From the NCBI GenBank assembly GCA_021818905.1, contig JAKASS010000014.1, positions 1 to 24,139 of the forward strand: 24,139 nucleotides of DNA, given 5' to 3'. The position numbers and the translations under genes are program-made. The notes under the pieces were generated by a model. That model was not told the DNA's origin. It was given only the letters and a program-made list of their open reading frames with translations, and searched no databases. The number at the start of each line of letters is the position of its first letter. Position 1 is the stretch's first letter. The DNA is from Nanobdellota archaeon (lineage in GTDB: Archaea > Nanobdellota > Nanobdellia > Parvarchaeales > Parvarchaeaceae). Positions 3,527 through 10,031 of this stretch are shown piece after piece.

Positions 3527-3748
3527 ATGAAGACGGTGATGTTAAATGATGAAGTATATAACGCGCTATCCAAAATAAAGGGTAAGAAAAGTTTTAGTGA
3601 ACTACTCGAGGCGTTGCTTCTAAGCTCGGAGGATTATAAGACTAAACTTTTAGAGAGCGTAAAAGGGATAATAACAGCAGAAGAAGCAAGAGCAGCGGAA
3701 AAGGCAGTTAAAAGAATCCGGGAGCACGCCAAAGTTAGGGACTTATGA
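3527..3748 (+). CDS. vapB: VapB-type antitoxin
   Basis: A 73-residue protein beginning with a short beta-like MKTVMLNDEVYNALSKIKG, then a helical ELLEALLL segment and a charged helical tail. This is the layout of small archaeal VapB antitoxins, which bind DNA with the N-terminal part and cover the toxin active site with the tail. Its TGA stop overlaps the ATG of the downstream PIN-domain gene in an ATGA junction, so the two are translationally coupled. The start at 3527 follows a GAGGTC site and a palindromic operator. Family assignment rests on size, shape and neighbour. It sits between two copies of the 23S trailer repeat. Confidence 0.8.
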   Translation: MKTVMLNDEVYNALSKIKGKKSFSELLEALLLSSEDYKTKLLESVKGIITAEEARAAEKAVKRIREHAKVRDL

Positions 3749-4128
3749 ATGTTTTATTAGATACTTCGGTAATCATCGAACAATTGAAAGGTAATGAAAA
3801 GATCAATAATTTGATAACAGCGAATGAAAGTAATAATGTTAGTGTATTGAGTGTCTATGAAACTCTTGTTGGGATAAAAGATAAGGCCAAAAGACTGAAG
3901 GTTGAACGATTTTTTGAAGCATTTCCATTACTAGGATTTTCAGCGATAGACGCAGCCGAGGCCGCCAAAATTCATGAATTATTGGCTTCAAAGGGCAGCT
4001 TAATAAACACGATGGATATGCTACTTGCAGCCCAGGCGGCAAATAGAAATTTAACGATCTTGACTAAAGATAGGGATTTTATTAAGGTAAGAGATATCTT
4101 CGGGATCAATTCTGTAATAATCGATTAA
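3745..4128 (+). CDS. vapC: VapC-type PIN-domain ribonuclease toxin
   Basis: At 127 residues it has a normal length for VapC. The PIN-domain acidic residues are in place: D6 in the opening LLDTSVIIE, E39 in SVYETLVG, D91 in MDMLLAAQA, and D109/D111 in TKDRDF. PIN toxins are magnesium-dependent endoribonucleases; known VapCs cut tRNAs or the sarcin-ricin loop of 23S rRNA. The target here is unknown, but the position right behind a 23S gene with a changed sarcin-ricin tetraloop is suggestive. It overlaps vapB by 4 bp and appears intact. Confidence 0.9.
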   Translation: MNVLLDTSVIIEQLKGNEKINNLITANESNNVSVLSVYETLVGIKDKAKRLKVERFFEAFPLLGFSAIDAAEAAKIHELLASKGSLINTMDMLLAAQAANRNLTILTKDRDFIKVRDIFGINSVIID

Positions 4129-4146
4129 AAACTAGACTATATAAGT

Positions 4147-4290
4147 TTGCAATCGTACGGTACGCGTGTGCATGACTGTCTTGTAGCGCGACTAGATACT
4201 CATCAAAATCGCCCCGTTCCTGCACATAAAGTAGGAAATGGGGAGTCATGTACAAGCGTAATCGTACGGCCATCGACAGCGTTTGATATT
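4147..4290 (+). repeat. 23S trailer repeat, copy C, split by a MITE
   Basis: TTTGCAATCGTACGG (4147-4160) and CCATCGACAGCGTTTGAT (4270-4287) join into one trailer-like sequence once the 99-bp insert and one copy of its target duplication are removed. The result resembles copy B more than copy A (both have ATCG.ACGGCC where A has ATTGTACAGTC). It lacks the 23S-coding part found in copies A and B. It lies between the VapBC and MNT/HEPN cassettes. Confidence 0.75.
4161..4259 (+). mobile_element. MITE of about 99 bp with 15-bp imperfect inverted ends
   Basis: The ends ACGCGTGTGCATGAC (4162-4176) and GTCATGTACAAGCGT (4245-4259) are inverted repeats matching at 13 of 15 positions. The 10-bp sequence AATCGTACGG flanks the element directly on both sides (4151-4160 and 4260-4269), a target-site duplication. 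Its left roughly 65 bp are nearly identical to the left end of the IS remnant at 9840, so it is a non-autonomous relative. It encodes no transposase. Confidence 0.8.
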
Positions 4291-4303: not shown

Positions 4304-4636
4304 TTACTTTTGTAGTTTTTTTATTTTTGTTTTTATTTGCGGCAAGATAATGTTTATTACGCCCCAGACCGCGTCGAGGTCTACTGCAAAGTATTGATGG
4401 ACCAAAATATCACGCACTCCCGCCAATTCCTTCCAATTTACATCCCTATGACCGTCTCTAAATCCTTGGGACAGGTTCTTCGTGGCTTCACCGATCACAG
4501 TAAGTGATCTCAAGACAGCATTGATCTTTTCTTTATTTTTTATAAAACTTTCTTTGGATAAGTCCTTTGTACAGTTCTCAATGTCGTCTATGCTCTCAAG
4601 TATGTGCCTTACGAATTCAAAATCGTCTTTTTTCAT
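4304..4636 (-). CDS. hepT: HEPN-domain toxin, HepT type
   Basis: A 110-residue all-helical protein starting MKKDDFEFVRH. It has the HEPN RNase signature R-x4-H-x-Y at R75, H80 and Y82 (RDILVHQY). In HepT/MntA pairs the HEPN protein is an RNase, and the partner MNT protein adds AMP to the tyrosine of this motif. The start at 4636 forms an ATGA overlap with the stop of the upstream MNT gene. A longer open frame to 4690 would run inside MNT and is unlikely. All motif residues are present, so the toxin looks active. Confidence 0.88.
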   Translation of the reverse strand: MKKDDFEFVRHILESIDDIENCTKDLSKESFIKNKEKINAVLRSLTVIGEATKNLSQGFRDGHRDVNWKELAGVRDILVHQYFAVDLDAVWGVINIILPQIKTKIKKLQK

Positions 4637-5046
4637 ATAATCATTATTTCGTCGTTCAGTATACTTTGTTTTATGTGCGGATCCATCCATTTGTAGCTGA
4701 CTAGGTCTACTTTGCGCCCGAACGCTTCTTCTAGTTCAATATGCAGATCAACGACTTTGTATGCCATTTTTTCATCATCGAATTCTATAAGCAGGTCGAT
4801 GTCGCTATCGGTTTTGGCTTCTCCCCTAGCAAAGGAACCGAATAAACCGGCCCTTTTTACGCCATATTTTTTAAGTATAGGTATTGCAATGTCTTTTATT
4901 TCATTTAAATTCGGGATAGTCTTTATTCTCTGCCGACCATTTTTTATCAAGTCCAATATCACTTCTTCAAATGGTTCTCTTCTATGTATTTTTAACCCGG
5001 CAAGCAAAGACTTCGTTTTCGTGCTTACCTTTATTGTGCTAATCAT
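4633..5046 (-). CDS. mntA: MNT-domain antitoxin (MntA type) with an N-terminal VapB/RHH-like segment
   Basis: A 137-residue protein. Residues about 1-40 (MISTIKVSTKTKSLLAGLK onward) look like a small ribbon-helix-helix or VapB-type DNA-binding segment. Residues about 55-135 form a minimal nucleotidyltransferase with the G-S-x10-D-x-D motif at G70-S71-D82-D84 and a probable third acid at D114. In characterised pairs MntA inactivates HepT by AMPylation. I place the start at 5046 rather than 5115 because a TATA box lies about 26 nt upstream and an 18-bp palindrome abuts this ATG. The extra upstream residues would be read from the promoter and the rRNA repeat. The gene overlaps hepT by 4 bp. Confidence 0.85.
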   Translation of the reverse strand: MISTIKVSTKTKSLLAGLKIHRREPFEEVILDLIKNGRQRIKTIPNLNEIKDIAIPILKKYGVKRAGLFGSFARGEAKTDSDIDLLIEFDDEKMAYKVVDLHIELEEAFGRKVDLVSYKWMDPHIKQSILNDEIMII

Positions 5047-5076
5047 GGTATACTGTAGTATACCATAGTATAAATA
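5047..5076 (-). promoter_or_regulatory. mntA-hepT leaderless promoter with 18-bp operator
   Basis: GGTATACT-GT-AGTATACC at 5047-5064 is a perfect palindrome with 8-nt arms directly before the ATG of mntA on the minus strand. The TATA-like TTTATACT (about 5066-5074) is centred near 26 nt upstream of that ATG, so the transcript is probably leaderless and the operator fills the space between TATA box and start. Binding there by the antitoxin would block initiation. Confidence 0.65.
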
Positions 5077-5088
5077 CTTTATTGCGAT

Positions 5089-5180
5089 GCACAAGCCGAG
5101 GTTTTCAGCGCACAATCGCTAATCAGCCAAGGCTTTTTTGCAATCGCACGGCCATCGACAGCGTTTGGTAAATTTTTATT
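5089..5180 (+). repeat. 23S 3'-end/trailer repeat, copy B
   Basis: Starts GCACAAGCCGAGGTTTTCAG and runs through TTTTTGCAATCGCACGG and CCATCGACAGCGTTTGG. It matches the last roughly 45 nt of the 23S rRNA and its trailer (copy A), with scattered substitutions and no gaps over about 82 nt. It is not preceded by any more 23S sequence: bases just before it are the mntA promoter. It cannot be a second rRNA gene, only a detached 3' end. Confidence 0.85.
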
Positions 5181-5722: not shown

Positions 5723-6184
5723 TTATAGATCTTTTCTTAATAAATATGCGGAGATAGCCAGCATCGCAAATATGGAGGCGTGTCCGGTCGTGCAAAGCAA
5801 GCATATGGAGCCTATCTTGAAAATTTCAAGATAAATCAGATAAAACGCCGTGGCCGCGCCAAGCAAAGACAAAGTAAATATCGCGTATAGGAAATACCTT
5901 GTCTTTTTGTTTTTAATAAAAAACGCATAGATACCAGAAAGCGCAAACATGACCGAAAAGAAGACGATGCCGTAATCGTATAAGTTTATCCCGAATAAAG
6001 TCGAATACGGACTCGCTATGACTTTACCACAGTCTACTGCGGTATTATATATGCTGCAAGAATTTTGCGGTATTACATTAAAACCGAATGATAACGAAAG
6101 ATAGACCATCGCGCCGATCCCCAATGCGCTAAAAGCAATCAAAAGATAACGATACAGCCTATAATCTTTTTTGATTTTCTCCAT
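5723..6184 (-). CDS. VKOR-family membrane thiol oxidoreductase
   Basis: A 153-residue membrane protein with four helices (about 12-32, 70-90, 97-120, 125-148). It has the four VKOR cysteines: the loop pair C43 and C52, and the active-site pair C128-x-x-C131 (CLLC). Prokaryotic VKOR homologues reoxidise a periplasmic thioredoxin-like protein and pass electrons to quinone, driving disulfide formation in secreted proteins. That fits the cysteine-rich exported proteins encoded about 1-4 kb away. No thioredoxin domain is fused here. It starts 12 nt after the end of TBP, so the two may be cotranscribed. Confidence 0.88.
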   Translation of the reverse strand: MEKIKKDYRLYRYLLIAFSALGIGAMVYLSLSFGFNVIPQNSCSIYNTAVDCGKVIASPYSTLFGINLYDYGIVFFSVMFALSGIYAFFIKNKKTRYFLYAIFTLSLLGAATAFYLIYLEIFKIGSICLLCTTGHASIFAMLAISAYLLRKDL

Positions 6185-6196
6185 GCGTAAAAAGAC

Positions 6197-6730
6197 TTAG
6201 CCCTTTTTGTTTATCGCAGAAACCAAGACTTTTATTGCGGCGTCTATCTCGGCTATGTTTTTAGCGCCGGTGCATACTATTTTACCGGTCCCGAACAGGA
6301 GAAAGGTTATCTTTGAATTGACTAATTTGTATACCAAGCCAGGGAACTGTTCAGGGTTATATTCGGTCTCGTCTATGGCATATGCTATCTTGTTTAGATC
6401 TAGTGGTCTGTTCAGGTTACCACTGGCGACGATGTTCTGTATCTCGATCTTCCAACCGGGTTTCACCCGCACCTTTATCTTTTTCAGTTCTTTAATGAGC
6501 GGGACCATAGCATTGTTTATATCATTTCTGGATCTCCCGCCAGTGCATACGAGCTTCCCGCTGCCGAAAACAAGAAAAGTCACATGTAAGTCGGTCAATC
6601 TAAAAACCAACCCGGGGAACTGTTCAGGGTTATATTGCGTGTTAGGCAGCTTCTTCAGTTTTTTTAGCGGGATAGGAACTTTAAGCGATATGCTTGCGAC
6701 GATATTTTCGACTTTATAAAGTTTTGCCAT
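6197..6730 (-). CDS. tbp: TATA-box binding protein (TBP)
   Basis: A 177-residue protein made of two direct repeats. Each runs from an NIVAS motif through YNPEQFPGLV and a TFLVFGSGK/TFLLFGTGK strand to VCTG (about residues 9-80 and 99-172). This is the complete saddle fold of TBP, which binds the promoter TATA box and recruits TFB and RNA polymerase. Conservation between the two halves is high, as usual in archaea. On the minus strand the ATG is preceded by AGGTGATAAGGGAGT, a plausible ribosome binding region, and by CTATAAATATT (about 6752-6762). Confidence 0.97.
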   Translation of the reverse strand: MAKLYKVENIVASISLKVPIPLKKLKKLPNTQYNPEQFPGLVFRLTDLHVTFLVFGSGKLVCTGGRSRNDINNAMVPLIKELKKIKVRVKPGWKIEIQNIVASGNLNRPLDLNKIAYAIDETEYNPEQFPGLVYKLVNSKITFLLFGTGKIVCTGAKNIAEIDAAIKVLVSAINKKG

Positions 6731-6980: not shown

Positions 6981-7469
6981 TTATCTCTTGCACGTAGGTT
7001 TTGAAAATTTATTAGAATAATAAGCTATGACCAAAATGTTTATTATCACCATACCTGCTAAGATCGGCGTGCCGTAATCCTTTAAAAATCCCCCCAATGC
7101 GTAGGTGCCAGTGCTGCCGACCCCCAGCGCCGTGGCCACCGCCAAAGGGAAGGCCGTGTTGCATCCGCATAAGCCAGTCCCCATCACTATCGTTCCGACG
7201 CTTGCTGCTGTCCCGTTTATCTTCGCGTGGTTTCTAGCCAGATTCTTATAAGATATAATCGAATATATTCCCATAGTTAGTGCGATTGATGAAGTCGCTA
7301 CAAGTCCAAATATCAAAAATGGGTTTGCCTCGACCATTATAAAGCCCCCGCCCTGGACCGAAGCGAGGTACAAGAATAACTCATAATAAATAATGCCCAA
7401 AAAGATGCCCAATGCTATGTACTTTAGCCTGTAGATTTTCCTAAGCATGCCATAAAAAGACCCCGCCAT
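6981..7469 (-). CDS. Multi-pass membrane protein, last gene of the sulfocyanin operon
   Basis: A 162-residue integral membrane protein with about four helices (15-36, 48-73, 88-115, 133-152). A CGC pair (C101, C103) sits in the glycine-rich GTGLCGCNTAF stretch of the third helix region, a placement that suggests metal or heme-proximal chemistry or a disulfide. I do not recognise the family. It follows the upstream cysteine-rich gene by 6 nt, so it is probably translated from the same message and could anchor or serve the exported copper/cysteine proteins. Confidence 0.75.
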   Translation of the reverse strand: MAGSFYGMLRKIYRLKYIALGIFLGIIYYELFLYLASVQGGGFIMVEANPFLIFGLVATSSIALTMGIYSIISYKNLARNHAKINGTAASVGTIVMGTGLCGCNTAFPLAVATALGVGSTGTYALGGFLKDYGTPILAGMVIINILVIAYYSNKFSKPTCKR

Positions 7470-7475
7470 ATCACT

Positions 7476-8495
7476 TTATGCCCCACATGCTGCGCCAGTG
7501 CCGCTGGGTTGTGGCAGACCCCCGCTTTTTACCAGGTACTGGTTTACATTGGAGAAGCCCGTATAGCTCGAGAAGCCGTAGCTCATCACTTCACTGGGAT
7601 TTACTTGGCTGTAGTTCTCTCCATGTAAGTCGAAGTAAGCGGCTATCTTTATATATTGTTGGGGGAACTGATACTGATAAAAATATTTGATTGCGCTGAA
7701 CATCTGAGTCTGGTTCGCATTTTGCGATGCAAGCAGTTCGACAAGACCAAGGGCAGCCGCACCGTGGTTACAATCGGGGAATGCCGTAGGGTTATCACAG
7801 CAAGGCCTATACGAATGCGTGGCTACGTCGTACATCAAGGCTTGCTGCTGTGAAGTCAGATTTATAAGATCCAATCCACCTAGTTGCAAACTCCCAACGG
7901 GGGCGTAACCGCCCGTGCTTGCGAAATAATTGCTCGCTATGTATCCGACAGTGACTTTTTGGTTAGACGCGGCGTTGCTGTTTATCTGATCGGCGTATTG
8001 GGTGCTTGCATTGATTATGGGCCCGTTGTTTATTATGGTGTTGTTATTGTTTATGCCCAGGGCCCACAGTACAAGTTGGGAAAACTCGGTATTTGCCGAG
8101 TTGAATCGTATATATCCGTCGTATGTCCCGTTTAAAATCTCCTTTTCGACTGGTGTCAATGGCTGTCCGGAGTTGTTTAGGATTATTAATAGGTTTGATA
8201 CGTTTAACGCGCCGGTTTCCACGAGCTTATGGACGACGTCACCCCACTTGAAAGGTAATGTGTATCCATTTTGAGGGATGACCTGCGCGGCAAGCACCGT
8301 CTGGTTTAACGTCCGGTTTAACGCGTTATTGCTTTGGGTCCCGGTTGCATTGATTGCGGTGCCTGCGACCGCTATCAGGCCTGCTACGACTAGTAAGCCG
8401 AGCACGACCATTGATAATCTTTTGTGGTTGAGAGTCGGCTTCTTGTACCGAGTTTTCCTGCCTCTTTGATAGGTTGGTTTTTTCTTTTTTGGCAT
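7476..8495 (-). CDS. Membrane-anchored extracellular Cys-rich protein
   Basis: A 339-residue protein with a strongly basic N-terminus (MPKKKKPTYQRGRKTRYKKP), one membrane helix (about 28-47) and a large outside domain rich in Asn, Gln and Thr with many N-glycosylation sequons. The C-terminal part has PCC (C232, C233) followed by PDCNHG (C242, H244), then an amphipathic helix with GLVELL, and a final C337. The C-C...C-x-H-G-x-A pattern recurs in the protein encoded at 9232-9798. It recalls the PCYCGC-type metal-binding proteins, but that is inference. A copper-binding or redox role beside sulfocyanin is plausible. Confidence 0.78.
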   Translation of the reverse strand: MPKKKKPTYQRGRKTRYKKPTLNHKRLSMVVLGLLVVAGLIAVAGTAINATGTQSNNALNRTLNQTVLAAQVIPQNGYTLPFKWGDVVHKLVETGALNVSNLLIILNNSGQPLTPVEKEILNGTYDGYIRFNSANTEFSQLVLWALGINNNNTIINNGPIINASTQYADQINSNAASNQKVTVGYIASNYFASTGGYAPVGSLQLGGLDLINLTSQQQALMYDVATHSYRPCCDNPTAFPDCNHGAAALGLVELLASQNANQTQMFSAIKYFYQYQFPQQYIKIAAYFDLHGENYSQVNPSEVMSYGFSSYTGFSNVNQYLVKSGGLPQPSGTGAACGA

Positions 8496-8502
8496 ATGTT
8501 AC

Positions 8503-9228
8503 CTATTCGACTATTATCTTTCCGTACATCCCCATCTGCGCGTGTCCGGGATACATACAGAGGTACCAATAAGCTCCGGAGTTGTCAAATGCGGTAGTAT
8601 AGTTGTATTCCGTGGCATAGCCGCCAGAGTAATCCGCAGGCGGTATTATCGGCATCATGGACACTATGCCATTCATAGCCGACATCGGCATGTATTGATA
8701 CGGTGGTCCCGTAGCAGTCATTATCACATTGTGATACTCGCCAGAGTCTAGGTTTATGAACTCCACATGGATTATCGCCCCTTTTGGCACTATCAGGGTG
8801 GGATTTATCAGCCCGTATATGACGAACGCATTACCAGAACTGTTGGAATCATATGGCGGCGGCAGCTCGTGCGTCAGGTTGATTGCACGCTGAACGCCCA
8901 TTGCGAGTATGACGAGGGTTATGTTGCCGGAGCTAAACAGTAATGTATTGTTATTTGCGTATCTTTGCACGTGTTGCGGCAGGGCGTTCGCATAAGATTC
9001 GGACGTGCCTATGCTTACCTGAGTGCTGAAATTACTTGCACCCACACCACTCATCATATCACCGAACATGCCTGTGCCCATCATACCTGTCAGTCCGTTC
9101 ATCATGCCAAACATTAATCTGAAGCCAAGCAGCAATATTACGATTACTACAAGGAGCAGTACCACTGCTATTAAAAGCAACGAGGCGGTGCTTATTACCG
9201 AAGGCTCGCGTTTCGCTGTTTTTGGCAC
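8503..9228 (-). CDS. soxE: Sulfocyanin-type blue copper protein
   Basis: A 241-residue protein with an N-terminal membrane anchor (about 14-40), a Gly/Met-rich linker (41-60) and a cupredoxin domain. The type 1 copper ligands are visible: H166 in GEYHNVIM, and C224-x4-H229-x4-M234 in YLCMYPGHAQMGM. Sulfocyanins are acid-stable surface electron carriers in Sulfolobus, Ferroplasma and relatives, where they serve iron oxidation or terminal oxidase branches. It lies 3 nt after one Cys-rich gene and 7 nt before another. The symbol is used loosely, since no sox oxidase genes are seen here. Confidence 0.88.
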   Translation of the reverse strand: MPKTAKREPSVISTASLLLIAVVLLLVVIVILLLGFRLMFGMMNGLTGMMGTGMFGDMMSGVGASNFSTQVSIGTSESYANALPQHVQRYANNNTLLFSSGNITLVILAMGVQRAINLTHELPPPYDSNSSGNAFVIYGLINPTLIVPKGAIIHVEFINLDSGEYHNVIMTATGPPYQYMPMSAMNGIVSMMPIIPPADYSGGYATEYNYTTAFDNSGAYWYLCMYPGHAQMGMYGKIIVE

Positions 9229-9231
9229 AGA

Positions 9232-9798
9232 TTACCCGCCGCAGCAATCCTCTAGGTTAGTGACCTGTACTATCTGCGATACGTTGAAATCATGGTACTT
9301 TATCAGATATTTCGCCAGCCCTGCGTGCGTGTACCAAGCCCAGCACTGGCAGCAGCACCAGCCCTTGTCAGTAGTAAGGGCAGCGGCCTGATTAAACGTG
9401 TTGGTTTGACTTTGATTCAGAGTTATGTTATCATAATAACCTAGCATTTGCTTGACTTGACCGACCGATACATTATAAGGATTCTGCGGGATTTGGGATA
9501 TGTTTGAGTAATTTTTAAGTCCAGCGATCTGCTGCTGATAATGGTTCCAGTCCATCGGGGTGCAGCACGAACCCTGAAAATATGCAGTGTTTGACTGGGA
9601 AGCGACATAGTTCTGTATCGCTGTCAGATCGCCTAAATAAGCGCACTGGTCGCTTGTCGACTGACTTAAGGTGCTAAATGCCGATAGTTCGGGACTATTT
9701 GCAGCCGAAATCGGAGTTTGCCCGGCTGAAGATATTAATGCGAAAGTGATGACCACAGCTATCGCAAGCGCAGAAATCAACGGTATAAGATATCTCAT
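9232..9798 (-). CDS. Exported Cys-rich protein, first gene of the sulfocyanin operon
   Basis: A 188-residue protein with one N-terminal signal/anchor helix (about 4-24). It has ten cysteines outside it: C52, C78-C79, the cluster C148-C150 plus C152 (GWCCCQCWAWYTHAG), and a terminal C185-C186 (DCCGG). The CCC-x-C...H-x-G-x-A stretch resembles the C-terminal part of the protein encoded at 7476-8495. Such clusters would bind copper or another soft metal, or form disulfides supported by the nearby VKOR. It is preceded by a TATA box about 26 nt before the ATG, so it heads a leaderless operon. Confidence 0.78.
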   Translation of the reverse strand: MRYLIPLISALAIAVVITFALISSAGQTPISAANSPELSAFSTLSQSTSDQCAYLGDLTAIQNYVASQSNTAYFQGSCCTPMDWNHYQQQIAGLKNYSNISQIPQNPYNVSVGQVKQMLGYYDNITLNQSQTNTFNQAAALTTDKGWCCCQCWAWYTHAGLAKYLIKYHDFNVSQIVQVTNLEDCCGG

Positions 9799-9817: not shown

Positions 9818-9832
9818 AAAACTATAAATAGC
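9818..9832 (-). promoter_or_regulatory. Promoter of the sulfocyanin operon
   Basis: On the minus strand CTATTTATAGTTTT lies about 22-35 nt upstream of the ATG at 9798, the spacing expected for a leaderless archaeal transcript. The IS remnant begins only about 8 nt further upstream, at 9840, so an ancestral upstream control region may have been displaced. Confidence 0.5.
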
Positions 9833-9839
9833 TGTATTA

Positions 9840-10031
9840 GGCGTGTGCATGACTGTCTTGTAGCGCGACTAGATACTATCAAAATTGACCCGTTCCTGCA
9901 CATGATGATAAAAGCTAAATTTGGCGATATCGTTAGAAGCAAGGACAAGACTGCACAAGTAAACGAGGTCTTGTTAAAAGTCCTTTGCCACAACATCGTT
10001 GTCCTATACAATCGATGTATTGCACAACGCC
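9840..10031 (+). mobile_element. Internally deleted insertion sequence
   Basis: The left end GGCGTGTGCATGACTG and the right end GTATTGCACAACGCC (10017-10031) are imperfect inverted repeats. The first roughly 64 bp are almost identical to the left part of the MITE at 4161. They are joined to the C-terminal coding end of a DDE transposase. I see no clear target duplication, so the insertion is old or was followed by rearrangement. At 192 bp it cannot encode a whole transposase. Confidence 0.75.
9902..10016 (+). pseudogene. Transposase C-terminal fragment
   Basis: Reads MMIKAKFGDIVRSKDKTAQ then VNEVLLKVLCHNIVVL. This is the typical end of IS4/IS5-superfamily DDE transposases, in which a basic K-x-x-FG stretch follows the catalytic glutamate and the sequence ends in a K-x-L-x-HN-x-x-x-L helix. 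Everything before it, including the catalytic region, is missing. The frame runs on through the terminal repeat into unrelated sequence. Confidence 0.7.

Follow-up and report, generated by a model that had tools for sequence, protein, structure and literature searches.

A transferred operon combining a rusticyanin-like cupredoxin with three proteins of unnamed families in a Nanobdellota archaeon, and its possible part in extracytoplasmic copper and thiol handling

The four-gene operon and its cupredoxin

We analysed a stretch of 24,139 nt (the window; positions 1 to 24,139 of contig JAKASS010000014.1, assembly GCA_021818905.1) from a Nanobdellota archaeon of the family Parvarchaeaceae, whose genome (G000) amounts to 0.94 Mb in 25 contigs, and which carries an operon for a blue-copper protein and three further proteins, here called A, C and D. 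The organism is probably an acid-mine archaeon of the Parvarchaeota type. The genes lie on the minus strand in the order A, cupredoxin, C, D, with intergenic gaps of 3, 7 and 6 nt, in agreement with the tightly spaced four-gene operon proposed in an earlier account made from the DNA letters alone (the sequence-only reading).

6981-7469, minus strand: gene D, a multi-pass membrane protein of 162 aa with an invariant GLCGC motif
7476-8495, minus strand: gene C, 339 aa, with a membrane anchor, a helical ectodomain (residues 60-325), the motif RPCC-N-xxxFPDCNHGAA and a C-terminal Cys337
8503-9228, minus strand: rusticyanin-like cupredoxin, 241 aa, with a GTG start, a membrane anchor and a Met-rich linker (residues 39-60)
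9232-9798, minus strand: gene A, 188 aa, with one N-terminal membrane anchor, nine cysteines and the C-terminus DCCGG; unnamed family
9822-9829, minus strand: candidate TATA box, ATTTATAG, ~24-31 nt upstream of the start codon of A, located by sequence inspection

The spacing between the candidate TATA box and the start codon would suit a leaderless archaeal transcript. A, the cupredoxin and C each have a single N-terminal hydrophobic segment, and D, described in the sequence-only reading as a membrane protein with a CGC pair, does have three strong hydrophobic segments together with C101-G-C103. Profile searches of Pfam and NCBIfam gave no family match for A, C or D, so that only the blue-copper protein could be named. 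The linkage in related genomes that had been put forward as a check is found: seven further genomes also hold A, C and D as a cluster, in four cases with the cupredoxin beside it, and the gene set is therefore not a product of chance.

The cupredoxin had been taken for a sulfocyanin, an identity that has to be abandoned, since the score against TIGR03094 is 19.6 bits where the equivalog cutoff is 168.4, and the closest solved relatives are all rusticyanins. The Pfam SoxE family (PF06525) scores 22.2 bits, barely above its cutoff of 21 and lower than Copper-bind (28.9). Against the rusticyanin model TIGR03095 the protein reaches 107.1 bits (E 8.8e-31), and because the equivalog cutoff of 146.7 is not reached, we call it rusticyanin-like rather than rusticyanin. 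The likeness extends to a complete set of type-1 copper ligands (H166, C224, H229 and M234, invariant in 8 aligned relatives), but the protein differs from rusticyanin in its sub-cutoff score, its membrane anchor and Met-rich linker, and the lack of rus-operon partners. Tandem pairs of rusticyanin-like genes occur in genus and family mates (L037, L038, L039, L042, L043 and L044; L numbers denote loci and G numbers genomes), and probably represent the cluster of two rusticyanins, a multicopper oxidase and three hypothetical proteins described in Parvarchaeota (PMC5864196). The window shares with that cluster a rusticyanin-like gene within a gene cluster of a Parvarchaeota-type genome, but locus and content differ, and the tandem-pair proteins of L037, L038 and L042-L044 are 28-29% identical to the window cupredoxin where aligned.

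Families of A, C and D

A scan of 84,980 species genomes gave 261 relatives of C, counted as loci in genome contigs. The best 80 loci come from DPANN archaea, Chloroflexi, Patescibacteria and a small number of other groups. By tblastn, the half of C that bears the motif was also located on Burkholderia and Paraburkholderia plasmids. Residues W144, R230, P231, C232, C233, N235, P240, D241, C242, N243, H244 and G245, among others, are invariant in 65 aligned sequences, and C337 is kept in at least 90% of them. The family as a whole corresponds to none in Pfam or NCBIfam, and a sequence search of solved structures with the C profile gave nothing below E 0.5. The predicted structure of C has a mean pLDDT (predicted local distance difference test score) of 87, and of ~98 in residues 60-325.

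Foldseek returned nothing for C at E 0.001 or better. The top structural match among its candidates is the N-terminal domain of Escherichia coli CcmH (VIA-align Z 4.2, root-mean-square deviation 3.2, 78/81 residues), a Z that is weak for a helical protein. In profile comparisons, for which a panel of 40-odd neighbour families served as the null, C and the CcmH proteins encoded near it in Chloroflexi gave P 6e-4, their Cys-rich segments falling into the same register; CcmH ranked second of 43 families, and the next family other than CcmH had P 0.039. In a comparable panel for D one evidently false pair (DUF1573-like) reached P 9e-4, and a P near 1e-3 is therefore not trusted alone. The likeness to the CcmH/NrfF family (PF03918) thus consists of a weak match, by profile and by fold, in the region of the C motif, and of genomic proximity in Chloroflexi, whereas the helical domain of C is larger (265 residues), the LRCxxC redox motif is replaced by RPCC-x8-C-N-H, and PF03918 neither matches window C nor is found among the 25 most-matched Pfam families of the 65 members (E 0.5). 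We regard this weak resemblance as suggestive of a kinship between C and CcmH, not as proof.

The genome holds a second copy of C on contig C3 (L030 6891-10460), in an operon with a MarR-type regulator bearing a membrane domain, a Met-rich 80-aa protein, a CPLC membrane protein, as well as two unnamed proteins; in L035, a YHS-CopA comes next after it. Contig C18 (49195-49281; L031 ~9196-9282) retains 29 codons from the 3' end of a C gene, with 72% identity to residues 311-339 of window C, directly behind an acetyl-CoA acetyltransferase gene and 8 kb from the CopA gene of the genome, as the trace of a lost second copy.

The cysteines of A are C52, C78-C79, C148-C150, C152 and C185-C186, and C52, C78, C79, C148, C149, C150, C152 and C186 are invariant from archaea to Sinorhizobium/Ensifer. 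Relatives with 32-35% identity were detected in Patescibacteria and on Sinorhizobium/Ensifer plasmids; tblastn gave 33-36%, over nearly the full length, on plasmids of Sinorhizobium, Ensifer and Microvirga. Several of the proteins from the rhizobial A loci start, as read from their sequences, with Tat-like twin-arginine signals, which is consistent with an extracytoplasmic location. Viral contigs held no relatives of A or C, and phage records none of A. The A profile found nothing below E 0.5 among solved structures, and Foldseek nothing at E 0.001 or better; the model of A is moderate (pLDDT 76) and no new fold is implied by this.

The sequence-only reading had presented A and C as related Cys-rich exported proteins that share a C-x-H-G-x-A motif. 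The relationship stands, but the literal motif is present only in C (CNHGAA), the corresponding segment of A being CCCxCWAWYTHAGLA. The PCYCGC family (PF13798), a type named there for profile searches, matches neither A nor C and is not among the families listed for the 65 C members. Direct comparison of the A and C profiles is weak (P 0.0017; 0.012-0.039 under other settings), and the claim of homology rests on a third family that bridges the two.

L114 1951-2817, L095 3502-4296, L052 1232-2014, L158 and L159: bridging family, unnamed, CxYCCGA...CxCxHSxAMRGLAKYL

The motif of this family can be written C-x-Y-C-C-G-A...C-x-C-x-H-S-x-A-x-R-G-L-A-K-[YW]-[LM], and it shares neighbourhoods with C (L052, L055, L095 and L114). 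Profile comparison gave P 3e-7 against C and P 8e-6 against A. In plain hidden Markov model searches the C model finds the bridging family at 1e-6; with the bridging-family model, C members are hit at 3e-9 and those of A at 2e-5 to 5e-5, and the A model finds bridging-type proteins in two Micrarchaeota genomes at 3e-4. The element common to all three is a Cys pair, followed by C-x-(C)-(H/W) and then a GL-containing helix. A and C are, by these profile comparisons, distant homologues connected through the bridging family.

GLCGC is invariant in the relatives of D. Another membrane family, marked by ACCAHH, is encoded near C at eight Chloroflexi or Patescibacteria loci; its model hits one member of the D family (E 8e-4), and both families have the pattern FLxxY-x11-N. 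Three of its members, in some Chloroflexi, carry an N-terminal HMA domain:

L080 3933-4715, L105 941-1714 and L109 4259-5053: HMA-fused ACCAHHxTDVLPxLGL membrane proteins, the membrane part without a Pfam family

D is, on this distant evidence, a remote relative of the ACCAHH family, and thereby has its own link to copper.

Insertion site and transfer between phyla

The operon is flanked in the window by the following features:

5723-6730, minus strand: VKOR (5723-6184) and TBP (6197-6730), ancestral neighbours of IleS, outside the module
9838-10020, plus strand: insertion-sequence remnant directly upstream of the operon, with a repeated 66-bp element and a C-terminal transposase fragment

VKOR, TBP, IleS and AlaS are contiguous in the genus mates G005 and G015 (L129 and L130), both of which lack the operon, and the closest relative (L125) has two unrelated genes in the interval from TBP to IleS, where the window has the four-gene operon and the insertion-sequence remnant. 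From this synteny it follows that the operon is an insertion and VKOR an old neighbour. The VKOR, correctly recognised in the sequence-only reading, had been assigned a possible part in maturation of the module; such a specific role finds no support, as the gene stands beside TBP also in relatives without the operon. Copies of the 66-bp repeat (GCGTGTGCATGACTGTCTTGTAGCGCGACTAGATACT...) are found at window positions 4161-4227 and 9838-9903 and at C5:62087, C18:38506 and C3:7889, those at window 9838 and C3:7889 being just upstream of the two C operons, and a similar transposase C-terminus is encoded in L053.

The closest kin of the operon are in Micrarchaeota, with identities of 57-71% for A, 71-73% for the cupredoxin, 52-70% for C and 43-56% for D, which indicates horizontal transfer between phyla. 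IleS is 29-41% identical, over the matched parts, to that of the Micrarchaeota sharing the operon, compared with 56-92% to same-genus genomes, and a mis-binned contig is thereby ruled out. In a maximum-likelihood tree, window C and six Micrarchaeota sequences form one group (support 100/99); the second copy, on contig C3, falls with its own genus. Among 28 same-genus genomes sampled, a group that includes G021 and G015 (loci L058 and L059), D is present only in G000; three others have an A, 45% identical. The likely direction of transfer, judged from these sequence relationships, is from Micrarchaeota to the window lineage. CopA of the window genome (contig C18) is 68% identical to the operon-side CopA of L046 and 42% to that of the genus mate G015, and may hence share the transfer history of the operon. 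The contigs of L045 and L046, binned as "Marsarchaeota" and "Micrarchaeota", respectively, encode letter-identical operon proteins, and one of the two bins is probably mislabelled or contaminated.

Neighbourhoods of the families and proposed function

The genes around relatives of C were inspected in 81 retrieved stretches of up to ~6 kb on each side, many of them shortened by contig ends. A P-type ATPase is encoded in 36, against an estimated few per cent expected by chance, and 31 of these ATPases carry NX6YNX4P and MxxSS, the Cu+ signature. Proteins of the CcdA type are encoded in 25 stretches, TlpA/redoxin-type proteins in 14 and CsoR-type repressors in seven; the sole CsoR-type protein inspected (L099) has, by our own count, the C-H-C spacing of +25/+29 seen in copper CsoR. 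Near C in Patescibacteria there is a CC variant of CcdA-like proteins (LFAPCCITFLLPAY...SACCAPVL). The usual CcdA motif is PC; in L121 (1983-2816) and other Patescibacteria, adjacent cysteines occupy both conserved motifs (APCCIT and SACCAPVL). On the Burkholderia and Paraburkholderia plasmids C stands beside heavy-metal ATPases, CcdA and TlpA, and in Chloroflexi it is found by a TlpA-CcmF-CcmH-CcmI cluster.

A adjoins C in most A-bearing Micrarchaeota and in three of four Patescibacteria; it is next to CopA in L121 (Patescibacteria), and near a CsoR-type gene and CopA in L148. The order DsbA-CcdA-A is constant at all seven rhizobial plasmid loci, six of which have SCO, DUF411, a multicopper oxidase and/or CusA nearby; one of the seven is on pSinB of Sinorhizobium sp. 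M14, reported to carry modules for resistance to copper and other metals (PMC6115938). In Micrarchaeota, the complete operon of L046 is accompanied by CopA and by a divergent PadR-TRASH-like regulator; the divergent PadR regulator upstream of A recurs throughout L045-L048, with a C-terminal Cys-rich domain that is TRASH-like where complete. Directly behind A-D-C in the Micrarchaeota relative L051 are VKOR and a thioredoxin-like DUF929 protein, and oxidative folding may thus be relevant elsewhere than in the window. The window genome has its own CopA (566.9 bits against the TIGR01511 cutoff of 397), with the motifs CPC, NLFWAFGYNTVLIP and MALSS of an IB-1 ATPase.

Copper involvement of the module is well supported by this gene context, and the earlier suggestion of a surface module devoted to copper, in an acidophile with a reduced genome, also has support from it. 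We favour, with moderate confidence, a horizontally acquired module that handles Cu(I) and thiols outside the membrane, where it would buffer copper and mature or protect the cupredoxin. A and C, as membrane-anchored Cys-rich ectoproteins, would take up or hand on Cu(I) by means of their CC...C-x-H and CCCxC...CGG thiols; CopA of the window genome would probably export this Cu(I). D could pass copper or reducing equivalents across the membrane, in the place held beside other family members by CcdA or a CPLC membrane protein, and the rusticyanin-like protein, as the co-encoded cuproprotein, would be recipient, final copper sink, or both. The operon structure, its conservation, the homology of A and C, the transfer between phyla and the association with copper and thiol machinery are results of computation; metal binding by A and C, the direction of transfer and the cupredoxin as client are what we infer from sequence and context.

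Several observations weigh against this proposal. No CopA, CsoR, TRASH regulator, metallochaperone or CcdA adjoins the operon in the window; CopA is on contig C18, away from the operon contig, and the regulator seen in L045-L048 is absent from the window genome, which has only a distant PadR. The copper signature is incomplete in five of the 36 heavy-metal ATPases found near C, and the cytochrome-c-maturation genes near C could mean that the common theme is thiol chemistry rather than metal binding.

The closest rival builds on the last point: A and a CcmH-like C would form a thiol-disulfide relay that keeps the cysteine of apo-rusticyanin and those of other exported cuproproteins reduced, without binding copper themselves. 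The weak match of C to CcmH in profile register and fold, the Ccm cluster near C in Chloroflexi and the position of A after DsbA-CcdA in rhizobia all speak for it, but A and C lack CxxC, their Cys clusters (CC, CCCxC, CGG, and extra His tails in bacterial A) resemble ligand sets, and the CcmH match suffers from the low Z and from the clearly false pair noted above. We consider a pure relay of this kind rather doubtful. TlpA keeps the cysteines of Sco and CoxB reduced (PMC9145763); the two readings have their partners in common and, by analogy with Sco and TlpA, may both be true together. The partners in TlpA/Sco/CcdA copper-site maturation are the same as those around bacterial A and C, but none of the searches made gave A or C a thioredoxin fold.

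An electron-transfer module for Fe(II) oxidation, in which the rusticyanin-like protein carries electrons and A, C and D mature it or join it to the quinone pool, appears unlikely. The ligand set H-C-H-M of the protein is complete, and tandem rusticyanins with a multicopper oxidase have been proposed for iron oxidation in Parvarchaeota (PMC5864196), but the operon contains neither a cytochrome c nor an oxidase. The sequence-only reading had rightly seen no oxidase subunit here, and no open reading frame for cytochrome c or an aa3 oxidase is present in the window, to which the scan for oxidases was confined. The existence of A-C-D clusters without an adjacent cupredoxin (L050, L051 and L053) makes an iron-oxidation module less likely; bacterial A or C also occur without cupredoxin, and an increase of rusticyanins with copper is also on record for Acidithiobacillus (PMC7463520). 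General detoxification of soft metals (Ag, Hg, Au, As) instead of copper is very improbable, for although Cys-rich sites bind all of these and pSinB has modules for many metals (PMC6115938), the ATPase motifs and the neighbouring genes (CsoR-type, SCO, DUF411, cupredoxin and multicopper oxidase) consistently indicate copper.

Returning to the Cu(I)/thiol module, a more tentative extension is that A, C and the bridging family make up one superfamily, so far unrecognised and related to CcmH, of Cu(I)/thiol carriers that act outside the cytoplasm. Transfer would have distributed it among Archaea, Patescibacteria, Chloroflexi and Proteobacteria, and together with the D/ACCAHH membrane family, likewise unrecognised and in some cases HMA-fused, it would make a complete relay that carries copper from CopA to exported cuproproteins. 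Extracytoplasmic copper sites need loading and protection, and to our knowledge the chaperones Sco, PCuAC, CusF and CopZ leave many organisms unaccounted for, DPANN archaea especially. Two large unnamed families that recur, in Archaea as well as in Bacteria, by copper pumps, copper sensors and thiol reductases make good candidates for the missing parts, and since A has relatives on Sinorhizobium/Ensifer plasmids, laboratory strains now offer a way to test the function of an operon from an uncultured archaeon.

Both the mobile copper islands of ARMAN-type archaea and the rusticyanin clusters of Parvarchaeota have been described before (PMC5498576, PMC5864196); in the limited set of papers searched, no description of A, C, D or the bridging family was found. 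In Ferroplasma, Cuniculiplasma and Mia14, copper fitness islands comprise CopA, a TRASH/YHS metallochaperone and an Lrp regulator (PMC5498576). The window operon resembles them as a laterally mobile copper gene set gained by an ARMAN-type archaeon in acid mine drainage, but differs in having no ATPase, chaperone or regulator, and in combining a cupredoxin with three proteins without a named family. It is also an example of copper genes that passed from one DPANN phylum to another and came to lie between two core genes. Elsewhere in the window, two toxin-antitoxin-like pairs, named by eye as VapBC-like (3527-4128) and HEPN/MNT-like (4304-5115), adjoin the 23S rRNA gene.

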